Below are positions 9,463 through 17,460 of a stretch of DNA of 64,000 bases, one piece after another. Each line of letters begins with the position of its first letter. Position 1 is the first letter of the stretch. The DNA comes from Psychroflexus halocasei (lineage in GTDB: Bacteria; Bacteroidota; Bacteroidia; Flavobacteriales; Flavobacteriaceae). The stretch is taken from positions 124,001-188,000 of the forward strand of contig NZ_FNQF01000005.1 of assembly GCF_900107595.1 (NCBI RefSeq), written 5' to 3'. A program made the position numbers and the translations under genes. The notes beneath the pieces were generated by a model. That model made no database searches. It was not told the DNA's origin and was given only the letters and a program-made list of their open reading frames with translations.

Positions 9463-9804
9463 ATGTTAAAAAATTAAAAAACATACATTTAACATTTAAA
9501 GTTGTCTTAAATCGTTTTTTTTTTTTAGGTTAGCTAACTCTAGCCAAAACATATCAAATGTTCTTCTAATTAATATAAAGAGGAAACGCTTTTCAAGATG
9601 AAAAGCGCTCCACAGATTAAGACATGAAAAATCACATCTCTAAGCGAATACAAAGTTACTGATTTTTCATGAAGATAAGGACAGCTTTTAGCTGAGATTT
9701 GGTCTAAGCGACCATAAAAATTTAAATATTTTAAGATAAATAACATGAAAAAGTTTTTTTCAATAATCGCAATTGGTGCGATGACAATAGGAATGAGTAG
9801 TTTT
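9463..9804 (+). repeat. Structured leader repeat, copy 1 (paired with 11836-12180)
   Basis: A long direct repeat that covers the spacer upstream of the 81-residue peptide gene and its signal-peptide codons. From 9527 to 9744 it is 218 nt long in both copies with no indel, and I count about 12 differences. It holds a T12 run (9515-9526), the palindrome GTTAGCTAAC (9529-9538) and four hairpins described in the ncRNA entry. Copy 2 has the same order. The similarity ends just after the shared signal peptide, where the two mature peptides become unrelated. Confidence 0.85.
9528..9744 (+). ncRNA. Candidate structured 5' leader RNA, copy 1
   Basis: Four successive inverted repeats can fold: CGCTTTTC/GAAAAGCG (9587-9594 and 9600-9607, 5-nt loop), CATGAAAAATCA/TGATTTTTCATG (9623-9634 and 9660-9671, 25-nt loop), CAGCT/AGCTG (9682-9694) and TGGTC/GACCA (9700-9714). 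A fifth pairing, GGTTAG with CTAGCC (9528-9533, 9540-9545), contains one G-U. Compared with copy 2, no base of the four stems changes, while loops and linkers do. A possible promoter is TTG (9502-9504), 21 nt, TAGGTTAG (9526-9533). The RNA could control expression of the downstream peptide gene; this is inference. Confidence 0.5.
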
Positions 9805-9990
9805 GATTCCGAAGAAATATATCAAGAAGATTGTGATGTTGCTTATAATGAATTACATGATTTTGCCGTCAATAATGGAGCAACTGATGAAAGTGCTAAA
9901 GCAGCAGCTGGTAACTATTGGGCTAATTGTGTTAATAACGGAGGTAGTTCTGCGATTATGGATGCATTGAAATTTATTGGTCTAAGATAA
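9745..9990 (+). CDS. Small secreted two-cysteine protein A
   Basis: An 81-residue protein not recognised by me. It has a signal peptide (MKKFFSIIAIGAMTIGMSSF) nearly identical to that of the 74-residue protein at 12121, then an acidic mature part with EDC at 28-30 and a second Cys at 62 (31 residues between), likely forming a disulfide across two helices, and a Gly/Ser-rich stretch before KFIGLR. A GLPGLI-type gene starts 22 nt after the stop. The pairing suggests that the GLPGLI protein acts with or on the peptide. It could be a signalling, antimicrobial or structural peptide; nothing in it decides. Confidence 0.75.
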   Translation: MKKFFSIIAIGAMTIGMSSFDSEEIYQEDCDVAYNELHDFAVNNGATDESAKAAAGNYWANCVNNGGSSAIMDALKFIGLR

Positions 9991-10012
9991 ATTTTGTAAA
10001 TCAAATTCATTT

Positions 10013-10753
10013 ATGAAAAATCACTTTATTATAATTGTCCTTTTATTCAACTTAGTGAGTTATGCTCAGAGTTATCAAATCGAGTATCAGGCAAAGGTTG
10101 AAGGTTATGATCTTGACACAAAGAAAGGACGAGAACTGAGTAGTTCAGTGAGAACTTACTTGTTGAATACCAATCAAAAGATGCAACAAATATCGGAAGT
10201 GCTTGTGATAAAAGTTGTTTCTGAGTCTGATAAATATCATTTATCCTATCCTAATATTATGATGAAAGACGGCTTGTCAGATTTTGATTTAACATCAACT
10301 CAAAGTTGGATTTCAATTTTTCCTGAAATTTATTATGAAGACAATACGTCTTATGGTATTTCAAAATCCTATAGTGATTGGGTGGTAAAGTCAAAATCTC
10401 AACAGTATTTTAAGTGGGACTTAACTTCTGAAACTAAATCAATACTGGGCTTTAAGTGCTATCGTGCAGTTCCTATCATGAAAGATGGTTTGAAAAAACC
10501 AGATAATGCTTACATACCTGAGGAGGTTTGGTATGCACCAGCGTTAAATTTCAGAGCTGCTCCAGCTTTATTTGCTGATGTGCCAGGAGCGATTTTGGAA
10601 TACAATACCAATTCAGCAAAAATAAAGGCGATTTCTGTAAATCAAGTTGATAAAAAAGTGAAAAGGCCAAATTTTAGAAAGTATGAAATTATTGATTATA
10701 AAACATTTAATAAGAGAGTTCGTGAAGAATCTCAAAAATTCATAGGTAATTAA
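10013..10753 (+). CDS. GLPGLI-like secreted protein, variant VPGA type (copy 5)
   Basis: A 246-residue homologue of the array genes with a signal peptide (MKNHFIIIVLLFNLVSYAQ), WDLTSETKSILGFKCYRAV and EEVWYAPALNFRAAP. The family signature is altered to ADVPGAILEY in place of GLPGLILE. The copy at 11031 shares this variant and the ...FxAxP segment, so the two form a subgroup. It is paired with small protein A, 22 nt upstream. Function is unknown. Confidence 0.85.
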   Translation: MKNHFIIIVLLFNLVSYAQSYQIEYQAKVEGYDLDTKKGRELSSSVRTYLLNTNQKMQQISEVLVIKVVSESDKYHLSYPNIMMKDGLSDFDLTSTQSWISIFPEIYYEDNTSYGISKSYSDWVVKSKSQQYFKWDLTSETKSILGFKCYRAVPIMKDGLKKPDNAYIPEEVWYAPALNFRAAPALFADVPGAILEYNTNSAKIKAISVNQVDKKVKRPNFRKYEIIDYKTFNKRVREESQKFIGN

Positions 10754-10764
10754 AAAATAAAAAC

Positions 10765-10965
10765 ATGAAAACAACAATATTAATATTAAGTATATTTTTC
10801 TTGAGTTCTACTCCCACTAACCAAACTTTAAGAGATTGTGATGAAGAAGCTTCAAGAATTTTTGATTACACCTTCCATACATCAGGTGGAGATATAATTT
10901 ATTCATTTATTCAATCGAATGAATGGAGAACTTTTTGTGAAATGGATAATGAAACTGGATTTTAA
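10765..10965 (+). CDS. Small secreted two-cysteine protein C
   Basis: A 66-residue protein, unrecognised, starting 11 nt after the preceding GLPGLI-like gene. The hydrophobic N-terminus (MKTTILILSIFFLSSTP) is a likely signal peptide. The mature part has RDC at 23-25 and Cys58, 32 residues apart, the same two-Cys spacing pattern as proteins A and B despite little other similarity. It lacks the long leader repeat. A 9-bp hairpin follows its stop, then the next GLPGLI-like gene. Confidence 0.65.
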   Translation: MKTTILILSIFFLSSTPTNQTLRDCDEEASRIFDYTFHTSGGDIIYSFIQSNEWRTFCEMDNETGF

Positions 10966-10992
10966 TTCTTTTTTGATAATTTATTTTAACCA

Positions 10993-11017
10993 CAAGGCGG
11001 CTTTTTAAGTCGCCTTG
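10993..11017 (+). other. Hairpin between small protein C and its GLPGLI-like partner
   Basis: CAAGGCGGC, a 7-nt TTTTTAA loop and GTCGCCTTG pair over 9 bp with one G-U. There is no T-run after it, so it is a weak terminator at best. It lies 13 nt before the next ATG and could set relative expression or mRNA ends of the pair. Confidence 0.5.
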
Positions 11018-11030
11018 AATATTCAAAAAC

Positions 11031-11738
11031 ATGAAAAAATTTACATTAATAATTTACTTATTCAGCATTTTTGCTGTTGCTCAAAACCACGAGATCACAT
11101 ACACTTATAAAGTTGAAGAGTTTGGAGCTATGGAAGGTGTTGAAAAATACATCGTTGATCACTTTAAAAATGAAGTTAAAAAGTATAATAAAATGGCTGA
11201 GTTTTTAAAACTAAAAACGATTTCTAACGGAGAGACTTATTCAACGCGATTTAATAAAATGATGCAATCAGACGAATATACCAATACAGACCTGATGTCT
11301 GTCAAAACTTTGGTGTCTTCTGTTCAGCCTATTTATTACGATAAAGGAACAAGTTTAGCTTACAACTCTGCTATTTCTAGCGTTGTTATCGAGGTGATTA
11401 ATAAAGATTATGTGACTTGGGAAATCCAAAATGAAACAAAAAATATTTTAGGAATTCAATGCTATAAAGCAACACCTCAAAATAAAAATGCTAAAGCAAA
11501 ATTGGTTCCTGAATATGTTTGGTTTGCACCAAGTCTCAATTTTAAAGCAAGTCCGAGTGTTTTTGGTAATTTGCCAGGCGCAGTTTTAGAAGCCAAAAAA
11601 CATAATGCGCTCATTACAGCTGTCGAAATTAAAGAAACTAATAAAGAACCTAAGAGAGTCGAGCCAAAACCAGGTCAAAAGGTAATGACTTATGAAGGTT
11701 TATCAACACAAATTCTACAAACTTTGGGTAAAAACTAG
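11031..11738 (+). CDS. GLPGLI-like secreted protein, variant LPGA type (copy 6)
   Basis: A 235-residue member with a signal peptide (MKKFTLIIYLFSIFAVAQ), WEIQNETKNILGIQCYKAT, PEYVWFAPSLNFKASPSVF and GNLPGAVLEA in place of GLPGLILE. It is closest to the copy at 10013. Its last codons and the following 50 bp reappear, degraded, at 13826-13890 without a gene attached. Partner of small protein C. Confidence 0.85.
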   Translation: MKKFTLIIYLFSIFAVAQNHEITYTYKVEEFGAMEGVEKYIVDHFKNEVKKYNKMAEFLKLKTISNGETYSTRFNKMMQSDEYTNTDLMSVKTLVSSVQPIYYDKGTSLAYNSAISSVVIEVINKDYVTWEIQNETKNILGIQCYKATPQNKNAKAKLVPEYVWFAPSLNFKASPSVFGNLPGAVLEAKKHNALITAVEIKETNKEPKRVEPKPGQKVMTYEGLSTQILQTLGKN

Positions 11739-11835
11739 ACTTTTAATGAACTAGTTTAAAAATTGATAATTTAAACTTTACTAAATATAACTTTTAATGA
11801 AATATGAATTGATAGAACATGATAGTAAATTTAAG

Positions 11836-12180
11836 ATGTTAAAAAAATAAAAAAACATACATTTAACATATAAAGTTATCTTAAATCGTTTTTTTTTTTT
11901 TTAGGTTAGCTAACTGTAACCAAAACATATCAAATGTTCTTCTAATTAAATTAAAAAGGAAACGCTTTTCAAGATGAAAAGCGCTCCACAGATTAAGACA
12001 TGAAAAATCACATCTCTAAGTAAATACAAAGTTACTGATTTTTCATGAAGATAAGGACAGCTTTTAGCTGAGATTTGGTCTTAGCGACCAAGAGAATTTA
12101 AATATTTTAAGACAAATAACATGAAAAAGTTTTTTACAATAATCGCTTTAGGAGCGATGACAATAGGAATGAGTAGTTTT
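11836..12180 (+). repeat. Structured leader repeat, copy 2 (paired with 9463-9804)
   Basis: The second copy of the long direct repeat, ending in the signal-peptide codons of the 74-residue protein. The T-run here is 14 long (11889-11902) against 12 in copy 1. The palindrome GTTAGCTAAC is at 11905-11914. The rest of the spacer after copy 6 (11739-11835) holds AT-rich sequence with no gene. Confidence 0.85.
11904..12120 (+). ncRNA. Candidate structured 5' leader RNA, copy 2
   Basis: The same four stems as copy 1: CGCTTTTC/GAAAAGCG (11963-11970, 11976-11983), CATGAAAAATCA/TGATTTTTCATG (11999-12010, 12036-12047), CAGCT/AGCTG (12058-12070) and TTGGTC/GACCAA (12075-12091, one pair longer than in copy 1). 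The upstream GGTTA/TAACC pairing replaces a G-U of copy 1 by A-U. Preservation of stems with drift in loops supports an RNA function, though two copies are few and recent duplication could also explain it. Confidence 0.5.
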
Positions 12181-12345
12181 GAAATTAATGAAAATGTAGC
12201 AGGTGTGAACCATGAAAACAAAGACGATTGTTTTTGGGAGGCACGACAAACAAGTCATGCTTTATTTGACAGTGGATTGATTCAGCCAGATTCAGCATAC
12301 AATAGAATGCGTTTAACCTTGGCTATAGCAGATGTAGAATGTTAA
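12121..12345 (+). CDS. Small secreted two-cysteine protein B
   Basis: A 74-residue protein with the same signal peptide as protein A (MKKFFTIIALGAMTIGMSSF) but an unrelated mature sequence: KDDC at 34-37, a helical middle, and a second Cys as the very last residue (74). The two cysteines are 36 residues apart. The 3' end overlaps the ATG of the following GLPGLI gene by 7 nt, which points to translational coupling of the pair. Function is unknown. Confidence 0.75.
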   Translation: MKKFFTIIALGAMTIGMSSFEINENVAGVNHENKDDCFWEARQTSHALFDSGLIQPDSAYNRMRLTLAIADVEC

Positions 12346-13073
12346 GAAACGAAATAAAGATTACTTTGATAGTGATTTTAATATCGCATTGTGCAGCTCT
12401 TGCGCAATGCGATTTTCAAATCAAGTATAAAGCCTCAATTAACGAGATAGTCATAGAAGATTCTATACGGCAAACAGATCAAGAAAAGCATTTTGTTTTT
12501 GCTCAAAAAATGCGAGTTAAAATCAATGCCATGTATAAAGACAAATCTTTTACCTTAGATGTTAAAAATGATGCCTCTATTTTTAAACCACCAACTTTTA
12601 TGGAAGTTGATAATTCAACTGTGCTAAAATTGGCAGATCTCTTTTTAAGTTTTCCTAAAAAAGTTTATATCAATAAGACTCAAAATCTTTGTATAGAAGA
12701 AACAGATTTAGGCTTCGAGAAAGTTTATTATGAGAATAAGCAAGATATAAAGTGGCAAATATTAAAAGAAGAAAAACAAATATTAGGCTACACCGCTCAA
12801 AAAGCAATAGCTCAAGTTGATGTCAAATTTAAAGAGGACGAGACACAGGAGTTTGAAGTATGGTTTACAAAAGAGATACCCTGTGGCTTTGGTCCTTCAA
12901 ATATTCACGGTTTACCAGGTTTAATATTAGAAATTAATACAAAAAATTATAATTTAAAAGCACATCAAGTTATCACACCAGCTAAGGAAACTCCAAAACC
13001 ATTAAGTGAGGATTTAGTCGATAAAAATTATTTTATAAAAATGAATGACAAAGTAAAAGAAATGAAATATTGA
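12339..13073 (+). CDS. GLPGLI family secreted protein (copy 7)
   Basis: A 244-residue member with a signal peptide (MLRNEIKITLIVILISHCAALAQ), WQILKEEKQILGYTAQKAIA, EFEVWFTKEIPCGFGPSNI and the classic HGLPGLILEI. It overlaps the end of small protein B. It carries the classic signature even though the copies paired with proteins A and C carry variants. The mature part has two extra cysteines (C25 after the signal, and IPCGF). Confidence 0.9.
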   Translation: MLRNEIKITLIVILISHCAALAQCDFQIKYKASINEIVIEDSIRQTDQEKHFVFAQKMRVKINAMYKDKSFTLDVKNDASIFKPPTFMEVDNSTVLKLADLFLSFPKKVYINKTQNLCIEETDLGFEKVYYENKQDIKWQILKEEKQILGYTAQKAIAQVDVKFKEDETQEFEVWFTKEIPCGFGPSNIHGLPGLILEINTKNYNLKAHQVITPAKETPKPLSEDLVDKNYFIKMNDKVKEMKY

Positions 13074-13102: not shown

Positions 13103-13792
13103 ATGAGATACTTCATCATATTATTAATTTCCTTTCAGTGCTTTTCACAACAAACATTTGTGTATAAAACAAGTGCTGAAGTTGATTATGAATCTATTAA
13201 ATTAGATGAAGTAAAAAAATTAATGAGAAACGTTGAGAGTGAATTAGATGAAAATAAATTTATATTGAGCGTTTTAGATAATCAGTCTCAATTCTCTGTT
13301 TCTGCAGCCTTGAACAAAGATTCTCAAAATCTTCAGGCTCTAAAAATTGCAGAAGCAATGAGTTATGTTAGTGATCAATGGTTTTATAATTCCTTTAATG
13401 GAAGTTTGTATTTACAAACCTCTTTTATGAATTAGATATTCAATGTTCAGTTTAAAGAATTGCCAAGATGGCAGATTAAAAATGAACACAAAGTTATAGG
13501 TAAATACAAAGTAACAAAAGCAGTGACATCCAGAAAATTTATTGGATCAAATGGTGTTAAGGAAAAAGAAATTGAAGCTAGGTTTTGTAAAGACATACCT
13601 GTTTATCATGGGCCAATGGGCGCAGTTGGTTTGCCAGGCTTAGTTGTTCAATTAAGATTTCAAAATACAATTTACACTTTAGACAGTGTTGAAAATACAG
13701 TAAATCCATTAAAAAAAATTAATCAAAATGAAGTTATTTGCTCTGAGAAATTCTATGATTTAGTTGATGAAAAACTCCAAAATTATCGATAA
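13103..13792 (+). pseudogene. GLPGLI family gene interrupted by an in-frame TAG (copy 8)
   Basis: Two open stretches, 13103-13435 and 13460-13792, lie in the same reading frame and are separated only by a TAG at 13433-13435. Read through, they give a normal 229-residue family protein: signal peptide MRYFIILLISFQCFSQ, then WQIKNEHKVIGKYKVTKAV, a HGPMGAVGLPGLVVQL signature and a C-terminal tail. The break falls about 110 residues in, before the conserved strand pair. It is most simply a recent nonsense mutation; stop-codon read-through or a sequence error are alternatives. No other damage was seen. Confidence 0.85.
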
Positions 13793-13825: not shown

Positions 13826-13890
13826 AAACAAACTTTCGGTAAAAACTAAACTTTTAATGAACTGGATTAAAAATTGATAATTTAAACTGA
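13826..13890 (+). repeat. Orphan duplicate of the 3' end of copy 6
   Basis: About 65 bp here (from ACAAACTTTCGGTAAAAACT on) match 11717-11785, which is the last codons of the GLPGLI-like gene at 11031 and its downstream spacer, with a handful of mismatches. No gene body precedes it here. It looks like a leftover of a duplicated and then deleted array unit. Confidence 0.65.
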
Positions 13891-14778: not shown

Positions 14779-17460
14779 ATGACAAAAAAACTCACAAGTC
14801 TCCTCATTTTTATTTTTACAATCACAGCAGTTTCCGCTCAAACTGTTCAACTCAAAGGTTTTATTACTGATAGCGTCCAGAATCCGCTGCCTAATACTAA
14901 CGTGATTGCCACCTCTTTGCAAGATGCCAATGCGCAGATTAAATTTAGCATCAGCAGCTCAAAAGGTGAATACAAATTACAGCTGAGCGAGAATCAGCCT
15001 TACCTTATTGAAATCACGCATTTAGGTTTTAAAAAGATTGAAGACACCATTGATTTATCTGAAGATGTCTCCAGAAATTTCATCATGCAAGAAAGCACTG
15101 AATCTCTGGAGGAAATCATCATTCAACAAGAAATGGCGGTTATCGTCAAAGAAGACACCATCACTTATAAAACAGATCGATTTAAAACAGGCGAGGAAAG
15201 AAAGCTGAGAGATATTATTAAAAAGCTGCCAGGCATGGAAGTTGACCGCGAAGGTAATGTGACTGTCAACGGAAAACCTGTTACAAAATTAATGGTCGAT
15301 GGCAAGGTTTTCTTTACAGGTGATGAAAAATTGGGCGTTAATAATATTCCTGCAGATGCTGTTGATGAAATTGAAGCACTTGATAATTATAGCGAAGTTG
15401 CCTTCCTAAAAGGTCTCGAAGACAGCGATAAAATGGCGCTTAATATTAAGCTTAAAGATGGTAAAAGGAAATTTGTTTTTGGAGATGTTGAAGTCGGTGG
15501 CGGCATTGAAGATCGCTTTTTATTTTATCCTAAACTGTTTTACTACAGCCCAAAAACCGCAGTTAATGTCATCGGAGATTTCAATAACACAGGCAAGAAA
15601 TCTTTTACACTTAAAGATTATCTAGATTTTGAAGGCGGCATGGCCTTGGCTCTGGAAGATCGTGAGGCTTACTCTAAATTATATAGCGATGATTTTGCGC
15701 AGTTCTTAAGGCAAGAAGATTTTGTTTCTAATAAAAATGATTTCGGTGCCGCCAGTCTTTCGCAAGAATTGGGCGGTAACTTTAGTTTAGACGCTTATAG
15801 TATTTTTAATAAAAGTAAATTAAGAACACAAAGCCGCGAAAATTTCGCTTACCAAACAACTGAAGCACCTGATGAACTGAGAACACAAGAGAGTCAAAAC
15901 GATTTTCTTTTTAGCATTAGCAAAATAAAGCTGAGGTATGATAATAGCGATGACACAGATTTAAGAGCGAATACAAATTTTAAATACAACACAGCTGAAG
16001 CGGAATCCTTATTAAATTCTGAAGTTGGTAATGAAAACCGTTTTGTGAATACAAATGCACAACCTGAGAATTTTGAGTTTTTGCAAACTTTCAATCTTAA
16101 CAAGCAATTTTCATTTAAACACACTTTAAAAGTTGAAGCAAAAATTAAAAGTGCTGACCAAACAACATCAAGACTATGGAGTTTTAATCAGCCGCTTTTT
16201 ACAGATATCATTCCTTTGATTGATGAAGGAGATGATTTTAATTTGAATCAACTCAACAAGAAGCAAGTGACAAATGTAAGCCTGAATGCCAAGCATTATT
16301 GGGTTTTGGCCGATTTTCACCATATTTATCCTATCGTGAATCTTGATTATTTTAATTTTGATTTTAGCACACTTGATGAGCAACTTCTTAATGATGGCAG
16401 CATCAATAGTTTTGAGTCTGCAGGTTTTAATAACCAAATGGATTTTGAATTGTTTAAAGCTGGACTTGGTTTTCAGTACAAAACTCAAATCGGGAATTTG
16501 GTTTTGAGACCAGGTTTAGTTGTTCAGAATTACAACTGGAATATTTCACAGTTTGATGAAGAGTTGATCAATTCACAAACGGCAGTTTTATTACCCGAAT
16601 TTTTTGCAGAATACAAGTTTAAAAATTCAGCAAAGCTTAAACTGAAGTATAATCGTCACACAGGTTTTGGCAATCACGCGAATTATGCCAACCGTTTAAG
16701 CTTACAAAGTTTTAATCAAATTTCACGTGGAAATGAAAATCTTGAAAACCAGATTTTTCATCAAGCGAGTTTATTTTATAGTCACTTTAGTATGTTTAAA
16801 GGCATGTTTTATAACTTGGGTTTGACGTATTTGCGTAAAGAAAACAGCATCACTCGCCAAACAGAAATTGAAGGTATTGACCAAATCAGCACAAGTATTT
16901 TAACCGATTTGCCAGAAGACAGATATTCTTTTAATGCTGGCGTTTCAAAACGCATCCCGAATTTTACAATTTCTTTAAATGGAAATGCAAGTCTCTCAGA
17001 ATATTCAAGAATTATTAATGATGAAGTTTTTGATTATGAAAACATCAGTTTTGGTTACCGTGCAAGTGTGCGAACACGTTTTAAAGATTTACCAAATATT
17101 GATGTTGGCGTGAATCAGAATTTTTCTCAATTGCATTCAAACACCATTGAAAACGACTTTAGCATCCTGTCGCCTTATGCAAATTTAGAATATGATTTTG
17201 GTAATTTCATTTTTGACTTCAATTACGATTACAATTATTTTAAAAATCAAACAACAGGCGATGCCAACCGTTTTGAAATGGCAGATGCATCTTTGTTTTA
17301 CGGAAAAGAATCTTCAGCTTGGGGTTTTGAGCTGAGTGCGACCAATTTATTTAATATCGATTTTAAAAGACAAAATTCAGTCAATGAATTCATTGTGACT
17401 GATCGTAAAACTTTTATACAACCGAGAATTGTGATGTTTAAAGTGATTTATAAATTATAA
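14779..17460 (+). CDS. TonB-dependent receptor-like outer-membrane protein
   Basis: An 893-residue outer-membrane protein. It has a signal peptide (MTKKLTSLLIFIFTITAVSAQ), a CarboxypepD_reg-like beta-sandwich (about 22-105, LKGFITDSVQNPLPNTNV), a plug-like domain (about 125-230, LRDIIKKLPGMEVDREGNVTVNGKPV) and a long barrel of alternating strands to the C-terminal VIYKL. It resembles the outer-membrane proteins found beside GLPGLI genes in other Bacteroidetes, as far as I recall. It may move a substrate or insert in the outer membrane together with GLPGLI proteins. No SusD-like partner is present. Confidence 0.88.
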   Translation: MTKKLTSLLIFIFTITAVSAQTVQLKGFITDSVQNPLPNTNVIATSLQDANAQIKFSISSSKGEYKLQLSENQPYLIEITHLGFKKIEDTIDLSEDVSRNFIMQESTESLEEIIIQQEMAVIVKEDTITYKTDRFKTGEERKLRDIIKKLPGMEVDREGNVTVNGKPVTKLMVDGKVFFTGDEKLGVNNIPADAVDEIEALDNYSEVAFLKGLEDSDKMALNIKLKDGKRKFVFGDVEVGGGIEDRFLFYPKLFYYSPKTAVNVIGDFNNTGKKSFTLKDYLDFEGGMALALEDREAYSKLYSDDFAQFLRQEDFVSNKNDFGAASLSQELGGNFSLDAYSIFNKSKLRTQSRENFAYQTTEAPDELRTQESQNDFLFSISKIKLRYDNSDDTDLRANTNFKYNTAEAESLLNSEVGNENRFVNTNAQPENFEFLQTFNLNKQFSFKHTLKVEAKIKSADQTTSRLWSFNQPLFTDIIPLIDEGDDFNLNQLNKKQVTNVSLNAKHYWVLADFHHIYPIVNLDYFNFDFSTLDEQLLNDGSINSFESAGFNNQMDFELFKAGLGFQYKTQIGNLVLRPGLVVQNYNWNISQFDEELINSQTAVLLPEFFAEYKFKNSAKLKLKYNRHTGFGNHANYANRLSLQSFNQISRGNENLENQIFHQASLFYSHFSMFKGMFYNLGLTYLRKENSITRQTEIEGIDQISTSILTDLPEDRYSFNAGVSKRIPNFTISLNGNASLSEYSRIINDEVFDYENISFGYRASVRTRFKDLPNIDVGVNQNFSQLHSNTIENDFSILSPYANLEYDFGNFIFDFNYDYNYFKNQTTGDANRFEMADASLFYGKESSAWGFELSATNLFNIDFKRQNSVNEFIVTDRKTFIQPRIVMFKVIYKL

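Follow-up and report, generated by a model that had tools for sequence, protein, structure and literature searches.

The window analysed here is a stretch of 64,000 nucleotides of Psychroflexus halocasei DNA, in which two copies of a repeat precede genes for small secreted-type peptides that are followed by genes of the GLPGLI family. A sequence-only reading had described the repeat as a 218-nt structured leader RNA (9527–9744 and 11903–12120) with a presumed cis-regulatory role, tied to a duplicating peptide cassette. As that reading said, the two 218-nt copies are of equal length, their hairpin stems are the same, and similarity continues over the signal-peptide codons, where 57 of 62 nt are identical, and is then lost; the differences number exactly 12. 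The full repeat is longer, 292 nt at 94% identity (9515–9806 versus 11891–12182), and a 68-nt block at 90% identity adjoins it. Our analysis suggests that each repeat holds an apparent complete gene for a small RNA (sRNA) of about 73 nt on the minus strand, placed either back-to-back with the 5′ untranslated region of the peptide gene or antisense to it. Judged from sequence, we put the probability of this at roughly three in four (0.74). The parts of the predicted gene are as follows.

9574–9646, minus strand: predicted sRNA of about 73 nt, copy 1, with its start near 9646 and its terminator end near 9574 (ends from the −7 box and the terminator).
9583–9611, minus strand: terminator-like hairpin, copy 1, from the terminator scan and wobble asymmetry; contains the 8-bp stem of the sequence-only reading.
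9619–9640, minus strand: hairpin SL1, copy 1, GAGAUGUGA-UUUU-UCAUGUCUU, from the fold; a minus-sense helix.
9651–9658, minus strand: −7 promoter box TAACTTTG, copy 1, after the Bacteroidota consensus; a good −33 element is absent here.
11950–12022, minus strand: predicted sRNA of about 73 nt, copy 2, with ends placed in the same way; matched by covariance model R3, fold z −6.10.
11959–11987, minus strand: terminator-like hairpin, copy 2, from the terminator scan.
11995–12016, minus strand: hairpin SL1, copy 2, from the fold.
12027–12034, minus strand: −7 promoter box TAACTTTG, copy 2, after the Bacteroidota consensus.

The source genome has two full copies of the repeat by DNA search, and covariance model R1 gave a weak third match (E 0.026). 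DNA search found matches in 16 of 60 genomes including the source genome, all of the same genus and some of them short and weak. Model R1 matched 19 of the 27 genus genomes, again including the source genome, at E ≤ 0.1, and model R3 gave 48 matches in 16 of the 27 at E ≤ 0.001; the copy number in Psychroflexus relatives reaches six or seven per genome. An exact pattern of the first stem scanned in named genomes had no match, and a looser pattern found 11 stretches, all in Psychroflexus. The element had no match in a plasmid search. An Rfam scan of the window at the Rfam thresholds returned three tRNAs only, with no family over cut-off in the leaders, and in more sensitive scans of the leaders all matches were far below cut-off. 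Both 218-nt copies, folded as plus-strand RNA, are more stable than shuffles (z −3.1 and −2.9). Counted on the plus strand over 51 aligned matches, 19 of 24 pairs have changed on both sides. The covariation score is 0.369 as compared to 0.141 ± 0.008 for shuffled and at most 0.108 for slid alignments, and the element is thus a structured nucleic acid beyond a mere duplicated stretch. Homologues with compensatory changes, as expected of the structured RNA element that had been proposed, do therefore exist. One extra pairing had been said to change from G-U to A-U; this fits the G-to-A change at 9543 in a 5′ hairpin, and by eye that hairpin has no counterpart in relatives.

The assignment of the main stems to a sense leader, on the other hand, was not supported. 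Since a run of A precedes the first stem on the plus strand, this stem is a hairpin followed by U residues on the minus strand. A terminator consensus scan listed it in both copies, on minus; in total four sites were found, all on minus (the other two are hairpin P3, described below), versus 1.3 ± 1.4 in shuffles. G-U pairs are tolerated in RNA stems and read as A-C on the opposite strand, so that off-pairs can tell the strands apart. The off-pairs were counted in 38 copies, left from the 51 matches after dropping seven that were weak, truncated or without a peptide gene, four near-duplicates and two with a 36-nt insertion. Read on plus, the first stem has 12 G-U cells but 41 A-C cells, which become G-U on minus; the A-C cells are concentrated at two pairs. 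Strongest helix and SL1 alike use G-U mostly when read on minus. The fold points the same way: the approximately 40 nt beside the first stem, which form SL1, are more stable on minus than on plus in 38/38 copies, and the region of about 73 nt in 37/38 (mean −24.9 versus −14.9 kcal/mol). For the 73-nt cores of the window the fold z is −5.35 and −6.10 on minus as compared to −3.47 and −4.22 on plus. When the structure is modelled in the minus sense (27 sequences), 88.7% of cells are paired, 94.1% in the terminator helix and 79% in SL1; 16 of 19 pairs have changed on both sides, and the covariation score is 0.429, whereas shuffled alignments give 0.251 ± 0.014 and slid ones no more than 0.177.

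The Bacteroidota promoter consensus is TTTG at −33 and TANNTTTG at −7 (PMC6847099), and the −7 box is also given in PMC9723704. Directly upstream of the sRNA on the minus strand, TANNTTTG is exact in 24/38 copies and has one mismatch in the other 14/38. A TTG lies 19 nt before an exact box in eight of the 38 and 18 nt before it in two, none of them in the class of the window. The predicted sRNA has in this way a promoter box of its own on the strand opposite the neighbouring gene, and its 3′ end carries an intrinsic terminator. A scan of this kind for plus-strand promoters gave matches at scattered places, none consistent. Wobble bias, fold stability, terminator, −7 box and minus-sense covariation together make a minus-strand sRNA gene the most likely identity of the main element.

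The sRNA was also found in 10 genomes of eight other genera, among 397 genomes of the family, with model R2 and then the minus-sense model R3; seven of these ten loci were in R3 and three were not. In 8/10 there is, on the gene side (opposite in strand to the sRNA) and just past the sRNA promoter, a match like the DUF805b pseudoknot; its 22.9–32.1 bits stay under the cut-off of 35.6 in every case. DUF805b formed no part of R3, and of the three loci outside R3 one has the match. By eye, the genes after these matches begin like secreted proteins or lipoproteins. The 20 Psychroflexus leaders searched for DUF805b (RF02914) gave no match up to E 10. Conversely, 30 DUF805b loci of relatives searched with R2 gave nothing better than E 1.6, and the sRNA is therefore no general part of DUF805b. 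We did not rely on the weak R1 matches outside the genus (14 genomes, E 8e-4 to 9e-3), and R2 matches L182, L186 and L187 and R1 match L105 were set aside as they look like ordinary terminators; L178 and L180 are without a DUF805b match. Elsewhere in the source genome (C21:8475–8511, L221) a DUF805b-like match of 34.3 bits lies just under the cut-off.

The peptide genes themselves were studied in 52 copies, the 51 aligned matches and L155. A same-strand gene follows in 46 of them and none was found for six. It encodes at most 105 amino acids in 39, with a GLPGLI gene next in 34 of the 39; the remaining seven are longer genes, several of them lipoprotein-like by eye. The proposed tie to a duplicating peptide cassette is borne out by these 39 of 52. 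L092, L093 and L135 match weakly and probably do not belong to the family. Among the 34 peptide/GLPGLI pairs, 28 of them non-redundant, the more alike two mature peptides are, the more alike are their GLPGLI partners (Mantel r 0.645, 0/2000 permutations), and peptide and partner therefore travel as pairs. The small peptides have exactly two cysteines in 29 cases, four in 6 and one in 4 (one of which is cut by a contig end); in those viewed by eye the two are spaced by roughly 30–40 residues, possibly in a disulfide-bridged fold. In the window the cassette genes are arranged as follows.

9745–9990, plus strand: secreted-type peptide 1, 81 amino acids, two cysteines.
10013–10753, plus strand: GLPGLI-family protein (TIGR01200) after peptide 1, NCBIfam match.
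10765–10965, plus strand: small peptide 2, 66 amino acids, without the element upstream; a GLPGLI gene follows at 11031–11738.
12121–12345, plus strand: secreted-type peptide 3, 74 amino acids, two cysteines.
12339–13073, plus strand: GLPGLI-family protein after peptide 3, NCBIfam match.

Thus two of the three small peptide genes in the neighbourhood have the element and one does not. All five open reading frames tested for GLPGLI (TIGR01200) in the window exceed the NCBIfam cut-off (69.5–109.7 bits versus 50). A GLPGLI-type gene at 13103–13792 is split by a stop into two same-frame open reading frames, 13103–13435 and 13460–13792, and a 61-nt piece near the 3′ end of gene 11031–11738 recurs at 13828–13888. 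For the gene at 14779–17460, a CarboxypepD_reg-like match exceeds its cut-off, and a match to an outer-membrane barrel narrowly misses it.

Some features were also seen around copies in relatives. Palindromes such as TTACGGTTTAACCGTAA lie upstream of class-1 copies in L063, L064, L068, L069, L070 and L072 (by eye) and may bind a regulator. Near two arrays there are SAM-II riboswitches over the Rfam cut-off (L063 18730–18788, minus strand; L065 1556–1612, plus strand); they sit elsewhere than the leaders and were rejected as the identity of these. L071 has, at about 9590–9760, a copy that lacks a peptide gene; the GCGCATAACG...GTTATGCGC arrangement that comes after it may resemble an integron attC site.

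The sense strand between the sRNA and the peptide start codon, and the repeat edge, have features of their own.

9515–9526, plus strand: tract of 12 T before copy 1; the counterpart at copy 2, of 14 T, is at 11889–11902.
9623–9634, plus strand: segment A, CATGAAAAATCA, seen in the sequence; complement of the SL1 loop and of part of an SL1 arm.
9660–9671, plus strand: segment B, TGATTTTTCATG, seen in the sequence; inverted repeat of A, within the spacer of the minus-strand promoter.
9682–9694 and, in copy 2, 12058–12070, no strand assigned: hairpin P3, CAGC-TTTTA-GCTG, from the fold; terminator-like on minus too.
9700–9714 and, in copy 2, 12076–12090, plus strand: hairpin P4, TGGTC-TAAGC-GACCA, from the fold; 23/38 copies have an H-type pseudoknot here.

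The T-tracts occupy the same place before both copies, and could slip and vary expression. The 12-bp sense stem of the sequence-only reading, CATGAAAAATCA with TGATTTTTCATG (A:B), has one of eight pairs changed on both sides in the 38 copies and four of eight in the 51-row set, by one cell each; being near-invariant, this pairing says little within the genus. P3 lies between the sRNA promoter and the peptide start codon, and its wobble count is 2 G-U and 2 A-C in 15 class-1 copies and 1 and 0 in eight class-2 copies. The H-type pseudoknot, picked by eye, lies on plus before the start codon, and in its place the two copies of the window, like 13 more, show either a plain hairpin or no clear structure. 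Its strands change together (GTTA/TGAC, GGTA/TGCC, GGTA/TACC, CTTA/TGAG, GCAA/TTGC), 87% of cells are paired, and its score is 0.387 versus 0.179 ± 0.026, with two of five measures within shuffles. The tail stem has 16 G-U versus 2 A-C cells on plus.

There are several points that weigh against a minus-strand sRNA gene. Many of the covariance-model matches were in the models by construction; R3 matches copy 1 of the window, but that copy was among its sequences. The structure covaries strongly on plus too, as expected for any paired DNA strands. In class 1, the subclass of the window itself, the −33 element is absent or weak. The antisense overlap with the peptide mRNA is only putative, no sense promoter having been located. 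Moreover, A and B have exact complementary runs of 9–10 nt in 4/9 outside-genus loci, which a minus-only reading leaves unexplained; that this complementarity is kept would fit a sense helix or a DNA operator. Runs of at least 9 nt were reached by 67/1800 mononucleotide shuffles, and those of the other five loci, 5–7 nt, are within chance. Finally, the loop of SL1, UUUUUCAUG, could pair with CAUGAAAAA starts by complementarity, but targeting of start codons in trans was rejected as cognate starts rank no better than random: their mean is −10.3 (n = 35) versus −11.1 for random and −11.6 for ATGAAA starts, with a median rank of 0.57.

In order, the sRNA gene would consist of a housekeeping promoter box of the Bacteroidota type, SL1, a linker, and then the second hairpin with U residues ending transcription. 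Should transcription of the peptide mRNA begin upstream, the sRNA may pair with the complementary leader and compete with A:B pairing. Such pairing would turn down the cassette to which the sRNA belongs, giving every duplicated peptide/GLPGLI pair an off-switch of its own, and the sense pseudoknot before the start codon may be the translational part in many relatives. Transcription of the sRNA, its action in cis and the sign of regulation are what we infer from these features. Repression of the adjacent cassette in cis, via antisense pairing with the leader, is the mechanism that we favour, though tentatively.

How far the sense strand takes part is where the explanations differ. A reading that includes the sRNA gene, and that we hold to be quite possible but somewhat short of even odds, is that both RNAs are real: a sense leader and a cis-antisense sRNA, whose pairing with A frees or traps B and switches the leader. 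It accommodates everything that was counted for the minus-strand sRNA together with the A:B and pseudoknot observations, and also the DUF805b-like pseudoknot on the gene side in 8/10 outside loci. The lack of a plus-strand promoter at a consistent place speaks against it, and the switching is something that we infer. That the element is solely a sense-strand leader, with all stems formed in the peptide mRNA and controlling expression, appears unlikely. The stems are indeed conserved and covarying on plus, the start-codon pseudoknot (23/38 copies) has a tail stem with plus-strand wobble (16 versus 2), and A:B complementarity is kept in 4/9 outside loci. Yet the G-U use of the strongest helix and SL1, the terminator-like site and the TANNTTTG box all point to minus, A:B covaries little in the genus and the window copies lack the pseudoknot. 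An element acting at the DNA level only, an operator or a recombination platform (inverted repeat A/B) aiding cassette duplication, is improbable: the repeat does stop right after the signal-peptide codons and A and B are near-invariant, but compensatory changes and strand-biased G-U use indicate RNA. A leader-peptide attenuator read from the ATG inside CATGAAAA can practically be dismissed, as the frame that it opens (at 9624 in copy 1) has 12 codons and a stop in copy 1 but seven and a stop in copy 2, and the ATG belongs to SL1. By eye, several class-1 relatives do have similar short frames, but one-base shifts break the frame in some class-1 copies and no stop is shared across class 2.

Extending the reading with both RNAs, one may speculate that a portable module of antisense sRNA and pseudoknot leader spreads with hypervariable secreted peptides and their matched GLPGLI partners, DUF805b being the sense half in other genera; we consider this rather doubtful. 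Were such a module real, every new peptide variant would come with its own silencer.

What was supposed to be a leader RNA becomes a candidate family of sRNA genes for which strand, start and end are defined. It looks like an sRNA gene that was duplicated together with rapidly diverging secreted peptides of one family, in Psychroflexus, a marine bacterium, and some relatives. The peptide/GLPGLI pairs are a candidate diversifying secreted system in Flavobacteriaceae, and in a few other genera the orphan pseudoknot motif DUF805b is now linked with an sRNA that is divergent or antisense. Literature listings on Psychroflexus riboswitches and sRNAs, DUF805b and GLPGLI gave no description of such an element.

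Several known systems are similar in part. DUF805b, which we know from its Rfam name and the present matches alone, likewise has an H-type pseudoknot on the gene strand, immediately ahead of the start codon, and its model RF02914 spans 35 positions. Rfp18 of Flavobacterium psychrophilum (PMC9723704) is also a structured Flavobacteriaceae sRNA linked to secreted proteins; compared by description only, it differs as an independent transcript. In Bacteroides, the cis-encoded sRNAs of polysaccharide loci (Cao et al. 2016, as quoted in PMC9723704) also lie opposite genes of surface systems; they belong to another gene class and are set apart by description only. sRNA families are already known in Bacteroidota: FopS and GibS of Bacteroides (PMC11697453) are similar in that they form a multi-copy family with housekeeping promoters, and 4/14 FopS are classed there as antisense RNAs. 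The GibS model run on the 20 Psychroflexus leaders gave at best 25.5 bits (E 2.2, cut-off 115), which does not place them in that family. According to the same paper, the targets of FopS are the start codons of other mRNAs; no specific signal for such action was found here. The Psychroflexus sRNA differs from FopS and GibS in its fixed place before secreted-peptide genes.

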